From Nanoarchaeales archaeon (GTDB lineage: Archaea; Nanobdellota; Nanobdellia; Woesearchaeales; UBA583), in the NCBI GenBank assembly GCA_013215525.1, contig JABSQY010000011.1, positions 1 to 35,590 on the forward strand: a stretch of DNA of 35,590 nucleotides, in the 5' to 3' direction. Below are positions 2,377 to 18,394 of the stretch, piece after piece. Numbering within the stretch: position 1 is the stretch's first letter; each line of letters starts with the position of its first letter. The notes under the pieces are model-generated. The model worked only from the letters and a program-made list of their open reading frames with translations, was not told the origin of the DNA and did not search any database. Position numbers and translations under genes: made by a program.

Positions 2377-2541
2377 TTTTAATTATGTTAATACTTTATC
2401 ATAATTATATTTTTACTGGTTCTCACTGAGACCCACATATTATTGGGTATCAATATTGAAATTCAATCCTTACTTTCACAAAGCAGATGCTTATGAAATC
2501 AAAGATATTCACAAAGTATCAATTAAAAATTTTATTTAAAA

Positions 2542-10048: not shown

Positions 10049-10088
10049 TTTTTTATCTTGCTTTCACGATTTTCCATATTTTATCAAT

Positions 10089-10152
10089 AGCACTAAAATT
10101 AAGACACTAACCAATATAGCGATGCTATAATTGGGTGTCTGAATTTCAGCAC
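10089..10152. repeat. Hairpin element copy A (conserved stem-loop flanked by agcact direct repeats)
   Basis: aaattaagacac/gtgtctgaattt outer stem; ccaatatagc-gat-gctata(a)ttgg inner stem. Confidence 0.8.
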
Positions 10153-10235
10153 TCTTGAAAAAATCTGAAAAAGAATGTAGTCACTCTCAAGTTCGTTCGG
10201 GACACTGTAAACAAGATTTACAGAGTTTTGAATTG

Positions 10236-10260
10236 AAGCGAAAATTGGCTGTCACTTGTT
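10236..10260. repeat. Conserved 3' block of element A, matching 18293-18316
   Basis: aagcgaaaattggctgtcacttgt vs aagcgaaaagtggctgtcacgtgt. Confidence 0.75.
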
Positions 10261-10408
10261 TTTCTGATTTTACGTTTTTATTTTATCCGAACGTAGTGAG
10301 ATTATTTTTTGTGAAGCGGACTTTAATTTCCAGAGTGGAAATTTTATAATGTATATTTTACGAAGTAAAATTCTATTTTTTTATATTATTTATTATTTTT
10401 ATTATAAT

Positions 10409-18101: not shown

Positions 18102-18193
18102 TTTTTTGTTTTTTCTATTTTTTTCTTTGTTTTTCTGATTCTTTTTTTTATTCTTTTCTGTCTCGCTGTGCGGAGTTCTCACATTGTGCCACT

Positions 18194-18260
18194 AGCACTA
18201 AAATTAAGACACCATTCGATATAGCTACACTATTAATCGAGTGTCTTAATTTCAGCACTA
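18194..18260. repeat. Hairpin element copy B (same element as 10089-10152)
   Basis: aaattaagacac/gtgtcttaattt perfect 12-bp outer stem; tcgatatag.../ctattaatcga inner stem; flanking agcacta direct repeats. Confidence 0.85.
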
Positions 18261-18394
18261 TTGACAAAATCTGAAAACGAAGTTTCAAAATTAAGCGAAA
18301 AGTGGCTGTCACGTGTGTGTCTGCTTTTTCGTTTTAATTCTTTACTTTTTATTTTGTTATAGTCTATTTAGTTTTTTGAAGTTTATATATTTAA

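Follow-up and report, generated by a model that had tools for sequence, protein, structure and literature searches.

Families of probably mobile hairpin elements with replication-linked orientation in a Nanoarchaeales archaeon

We have identified a multicopy family of hairpin elements in the genome of a Nanoarchaeales archaeon. Its paired structure is under selection on one strand, its spread is species-restricted, and it keeps one orientation per contig that follows nucleotide skew rather than genes. The same element occurs at unrelated sites in two species, and nested insertions are found without obvious target duplication. The family probably consists of non-autonomous mobile elements of ~180-190 nt, built around an imperfect hairpin of ~50 bp, that spread in single-stranded form and enter replication forks in a fixed strand sense. 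Insertion at the fork is the most economical explanation.

The window, i.e. the whole stretch of 35,590 nt that was analyzed (GenBank assembly GCA_013215525.1, contig JABSQY010000011.1), has genes, among them those for a TrmB regulator and a helicase of XPD type, from which the host was taken to be an archaeon, and it carries two copies of the element, designated family 1. An earlier note had described both as hairpins with a covarying inner stem, and both are present as described, with the hexamer AGCACT at 10089-10094 in copy A and at 18194-18199 in copy B. The true element is larger, at about 10050-10280 (copy A) and 18154-18340 (copy B), in both cases on the minus strand, which is the folding strand. 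Copy B is whole and uninterrupted (covariance-model match 18161-18315 minus, 143.4 bits), and its 187 nt fold at -61.3 kcal/mol (z -6.25) on the minus strand and at -46.0 kcal/mol (z -2.8) on the plus strand. The long imperfect hairpin, or arm, of copy B lies at 18175-18278 (minus; positions 35-137 of covariance model R1; -48.0 kcal/mol minus versus -26.0 plus), and its inner stem-loop, visible in the sequence at 18216-18240 (minus; helices 2-3), pairs TCGA (18216-18219) with TCGA (18237-18240). Copy A is likewise a whole element, interrupted by a small insert (covariance-model match 10056-10203 minus, 127.4 bits, and BLAST to sibling copies, with borders taken from flank conservation). Its 103-nt arm at 10070-10172 (minus; arm part of model R1) folds at -39.4 kcal/mol on the minus and -25.9 on the plus strand, and its inner stem-loop at 10111-10134 (minus), which is the covarying stem of the earlier note, pairs CCAAT (10111-10115) with ATTGG (10130-10134), with both sides changed at 4 of the 7 pairs in helices 2 and 3. 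The paired changes reported between the copies were confirmed: C-G becomes T-A, and A-T becomes G-C. A conserved downstream block that had also been pointed out is present, although in copy A it is broken by a 49-nt insertion at 10176-10224 (plus strand). This insert is a small hairpin of the type that we call family 5; it is missing in sibling copies, which read GAAGTTTTG or similar at that place, and a similar insert is found in the 5' hairpin of another copy (L022). The 5'-side domain of the folding strand in copy A, a GCGAAGCC..TTCGC hairpin with an AAAACG end, occupies 10225-10280 (minus; BLAST to siblings, border by flank conservation). Comparison with Rfam gave no match for the window and only chance-level matches for copy B. 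A fragment of a 57-nt double-hairpin element (family 3) lies at 2491-2519 (minus, the polarity of copies A and B; 90% identity over 29 nt, E 2.6e-6). Beside it are two adjoining tyrosine recombinase genes at 199-831 and 895-2376, one of 493 aa.

The element had been presented as two-copy, which greatly understates it. Covariance model R1, built from a structure-blind alignment of 26 copies, found 42 strong copies at E <= 1.2e-12, plus weaker ones, in the source genome (G000; 1.746 Mb in 172 contigs, 88.6% complete), and BLAST with copy A gave 37 matches there. The unit of ~180-190 nt comprises a ~104-nt hairpin flanked by two small hairpin domains. Read on the strand of the window as given (the reader's strand), it begins with a small hairpin (e.g. 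CTCCTCACTTTGTGGAG), followed by the conserved block TTTCCATATTG and the remainder of the long arm; next come AATCTGAAAACGAAG, likewise a conserved block, another small hairpin (GCGAA..TTCGC) and finally TTTTTCGTTTT. Outside these borders the flanks are unrelated between copies. Arm identity between copies averages 70% with a minimum of 46%, and there are several subfamilies whose inner stems are wholly different in sequence with complementarity kept; nearly all copies, diverged ones included, retain the structure. One copy (L112) is a chimera with a family-1 outer frame and a family-2-like inner stem. This chimera suggests that elements swap their inner stem-loops, as modules, between AGCACT repeats.

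Selection on structure, as the earlier note had proposed, is strongly supported by compensatory pairing far above that in shuffled and slid controls. The alignment of 26 copies (A1) is 97.4% paired over 38 pairs, compared to 80.9% (sd 0.8) when columns were shuffled and 41-46% when partners were slid by 1-3 columns. Covariation is extensive and goes well beyond the two pairs first noticed, with double-sided compensation at 22 pairs versus 14.8 in shuffles. Doubly changed cells number 136 against 41 expected; kinship of the copies inflates such compensation counts, and kinship is preserved in the slid control.

The plus strand, on which the hairpin had been read, is the wrong one for folding. 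The complementary (minus) strand folds better in 27/27 copies (mean -39.4 versus -22.4 kcal/mol, z -7.9 versus -4.0), an advantage also seen with DNA parameters, and a second long-hairpin family, family 2, shows the same preference in 18/18 true copies, four reverse-strand duplicates being left out. Mismatches at well-paired columns of the reader's strand comprise 27 A-C and 5 G-T (p about 1e-4, cells not independent). Since A-C on the reader's strand is G-U on the opposite strand, the opposite strand is the one that tolerates wobble. Wobbles are also conserved at pair 62-115 (GU 22, UG 4); AGCACT stands on both arms, and because this direct hexamer repeat may explain part of the wobble pattern, it was excluded as independent strand evidence. 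Around the elements, the reader's strand is rich in G and T, so that local mutation pressure would favor the opposite folding bias from that observed. Given the fold energies and the G-U mismatches, which run against mutation pressure, the functional strand in the window is minus. The minus-strand fold energies fit RNA and single-stranded DNA alike.

Template switching during replication can produce multi-base compensatory changes (PMC8794818), and it could in principle have generated the covariation by copying one arm onto the other, with polarity arising from selective loss of the less stable orientation. We regard this explanation as very improbable, since template switching yields Watson-Crick pairs only and would account neither for the G-U excess of one strand nor for the conserved wobbles.

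Family 1 has companions that lie beside it or nested within it, namely family 2 (about 23 copies, found among the weak matches of model R1) and small double-hairpin families. Family 3 is a 57-nt double-hairpin element with the layout TCA-hairpin-AAGCCGT-hairpin-AAG and 38 matches in the source genome. It was found in the apical loops of five long-hairpin hosts of different subfamilies (L019, L026, L029, L112 and L113) and in the 5' hairpin of another (L025). Siblings of these hosts read straight through the insertion site and thus provide the empty sites. Under a simple model, 5 of 38 family-3 copies in such apices corresponds to p about 3e-7, a value that composites moving as a unit would weaken. 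At the nested sites an ambiguous T is the most that could be read as a duplication, and the left flanks of family 3 differ between copies, with no conserved tetranucleotide target and usually a T on the 3' (right) side. Family 4, a small double-hairpin insert (CAGTAAAAAT..GGCGTAT..), occurs in family-2 apices and in one family-1 element (L079, L080 and L031). Family 5 is rarer, with four matches of one polarity throughout in the part of the genome that was fetched. Compared with a classical, DDE-type MITE, the elements show no terminal inverted repeat beyond the internal hairpin and, at nested family-3 sites, no duplication past the ambiguous T.

The orientation of the elements is uniform. The 106 copies of families 1-3 have a single orientation per contig in 29/29 multi-copy contigs, including copies 10-20 kb apart. 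All 68 of 68 orientation pairs agree, although some same-contig pairs are nested and so are not independent; 25 comparisons are within a family, none of them discordant. When 483 kb of sequence, chosen mostly around known copies, was scanned for repeats in an untargeted way, 90 linked regions emerged, every one with the same polarity. Over 324 kb away from listed copies, GC skew on the folding strand is negative in 17/18 contigs, and AT skew on that strand is positive in 17/18. The skew is very strong: at third codon positions, genes of the folding strand have a GC skew of -0.15 and those of the opposite strand +0.56, a difference that is a mark of replication-strand asymmetry. In congeners, 16 of 18 family-3 loci follow the same rule of orientation relative to skew. 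As a general rule, the G-rich strand is usually the leading one. We infer that the skew marks the leading strand here as well; with the G-rich strand taken as leading, the leading role would fall to the reader's strand, and the folding strand would be lagging in sense. Genes around the long elements are of mixed orientation (-- 14, +- 14, ++ 13, -+ 8) and placement is intergenic, so element direction tracks skew, in 17/18 contigs, and not gene orientation. The hairpins of family 3 are equally stable on both strands, with no folding-strand preference, yet family 3 is just as polar. Polarity is therefore not simply the loss of unstable orientations, which also counts against the template-switching account. 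One contig of the source genome (contig 84, 1-20000; L132) has a very long one-strand repetitive coding region with internal protein repeats and a GC skew of -0.44 in element orientation. Transcription terminators and riboswitches were rejected as identities for the elements, which occupy all gene configurations.

A uniformity of 100% is stricter than a mechanistic bias needs, and selection could be its cause. The elements might then be strand-polar chromosomal sites of use to the host, for example in lagging-strand priming, fork pausing or chromosome segregation, with orientation kept by selection. The complete uniformity, the intergenic placement and the retention of structure in diverged copies would all fit such sites. 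We nevertheless think them unlikely: three congeners (G001, G003 and G004) are without all three families, G002 has only three family-3 matches and G005 is without family 1, several different families share one polarity, and elements nest in each other.

Occurrence across genomes is narrow. With strict filters, a model search of 359 genomes of the order gave matches in two only, the source genome and the congener G005, and none in the 353 that lie outside the genus. G005 has a single family-2 copy (L065, contig 41) and no family 1. This copy is 96% identical to a copy in the source genome over ~150 nt, with unrelated flanks, although contamination of the assembly could account for it. Family 3 is present at about 17 distinct places in G005 and at three in G002, with none in G001, G003 or G004. 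No comparable large hairpin families came up when parts of G003, G004 and G005 were scanned for repeats, BLAST against phage and plasmid sequences gave no match, and a pattern scan of genome contigs gave one chance match, to a Cardiobacteriaceae contig from which the element is absent. No description of family 1 was found in the literature on double-hairpin elements, archaeal MITEs and small dispersed repeats. This distribution is the pattern of mobile DNA. The earlier note had left the choice between a small RNA and a MITE-like hairpin; a mobile hairpin is the better fit, because the elements are dispersed, multicopy, species-restricted and near-identical at unrelated sites in two species, and because they show nested insertions with empty sites in siblings and uniform orientation relative to a replication-type skew.

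The small RNA half of that proposal fares less well. Multicopy structured ncRNA genes, with transcription from the minus (folding) strand and maintenance through selection on the host, would account for the strong compensatory change, the G-U-tolerant strand and the maintenance of structure in nearly all copies. Alignment of flanks showed no promoter-like block conserved upstream on the folding strand, however, and 0/38 copies have a T6 run in the 60 nt that lie downstream on that strand, versus 13% in background. Family 1 is also confined to one species, with one copy of the related family 2 in a congener, and uniform replication polarity, common to family 3 with its lack of a folding-strand preference, is unexpected for such genes. 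On balance, ncRNA genes are a rather unlikely explanation, if a slightly better one than host sites.

Searches for candidate enzymes were carried out in the source genome, the assembly of which is 88.6% complete, so that absences are to be read accordingly. The Y1 transposase (PF01797) is absent from it and from G001-G005, with control genomes positive; the TnpB C-terminal domain (PF07282) and the reverse transcriptase RVT_1 (PF00078) are absent from the source genome. A TnpB guide-RNA family was set aside on the absence of PF07282, and a group II intron or retron retroelement on that of PF00078, with the reservation of the incomplete assembly. No match to a known IS end emerged for the types tested (Y1 transposase and TnpB). 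Each of the six genomes has a similar number of tyrosine recombinases, and these numbers do not track element copy number.

Several known systems resemble the elements in part. Integron attC sites are imperfect hairpins with one better-folding strand and the same orientation along a stretch, features shared here; on inspection of the alignments, however, no RYYYAAC...GTTRRRY ends were seen, and the copies lie kilobases apart among mixed-orientation genes rather than in a cassette array, and attC sites were rejected. BOX and ERIC-type repeats are modular intergenic repeats able to fold into structured transcripts. Compared by description only, they resemble the present elements in being modular and intergenic, and replication polarity is the distinctive feature here. 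Mitochondrial double-hairpin, or repetitive hairpin-forming, elements are like families 3-5 in their small double hairpins, loop variation and intergenic spread, but they are organellar, whereas an archaeal chromosome and a large hairpin class are involved here. REPs and REPINs with TnpA-REP (RAYT) are likewise dispersed, intergenic, high-copy, species-restricted imperfect palindromes. REPs, however, are 20-40 bp long, GTAG- or CGTC-tagged and often near each other in opposite orientation (PMC3733652); our unit is ~180 nt, inspection of the aligned copies recognized no conserved GTAG or CGTC tag, orientation is never opposite within a contig and no Y1 protein was found, and REP/RAYT was rejected as a class.

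The IS200/IS605 elements and their non-autonomous derivatives are a further system to be weighed and a precedent for replication-linked orientation, having hairpin-bearing ends, no obvious target duplication and an orientation that follows replication (PMC5371812, PMC6006769), as it does here. Degenerate elements of IS200/IS605 or REP type, moved by a Y1 HUH transposase that has been lost or is missing from the assembly, would explain these traits and the small double-hairpin families. Against this stand the lack of Y1_Tnp in the source genome and five congeners, the lack of a fixed tetranucleotide 5' of the element at family 3, the lagging sense of the better-folding strand, where IS200/IS605 use the lagging-strand template, and a single ~104-nt arm far larger than the two 20-25-nt subterminal hairpins of those elements. 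We consider a derivation of this kind improbable.

Under the preferred reading, insertion at forks, the element would spread in single-stranded form and then enter the chromosome at a replication fork in one strand sense, and orientation would be set at insertion. The lagging-strand template might receive reader-strand DNA, or the nascent lagging strand might receive the hairpin-forming strand; the two routes would give the same orientation. In the single-stranded intermediate, the hairpin would serve for recognition or protection, and the enzyme would presumably be supplied in trans. More tentatively, we raise a new mode of mobility that would need neither an HUH transposase nor a reverse transcriptase. 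Hairpin single strands of DNA or RNA would be built in at forks, for instance between the Okazaki fragments of the nascent lagging strand. Such a mode would give strictly strand-polar insertions without target duplication, and resident hairpin apices would be favored targets.

Strand-specific wobble statistics can reveal the functional strand of a repeat. If the fork-insertion reading is true, several tiny families of mobile hairpins are locked to replication direction in an archaeal genome in which the expected transposase types were not found. In uncultured archaea whose genomes are in fragments, the elements would then serve as markers of origin-to-terminus polarity, and they would point to a testable fork-coupled insertion pathway.
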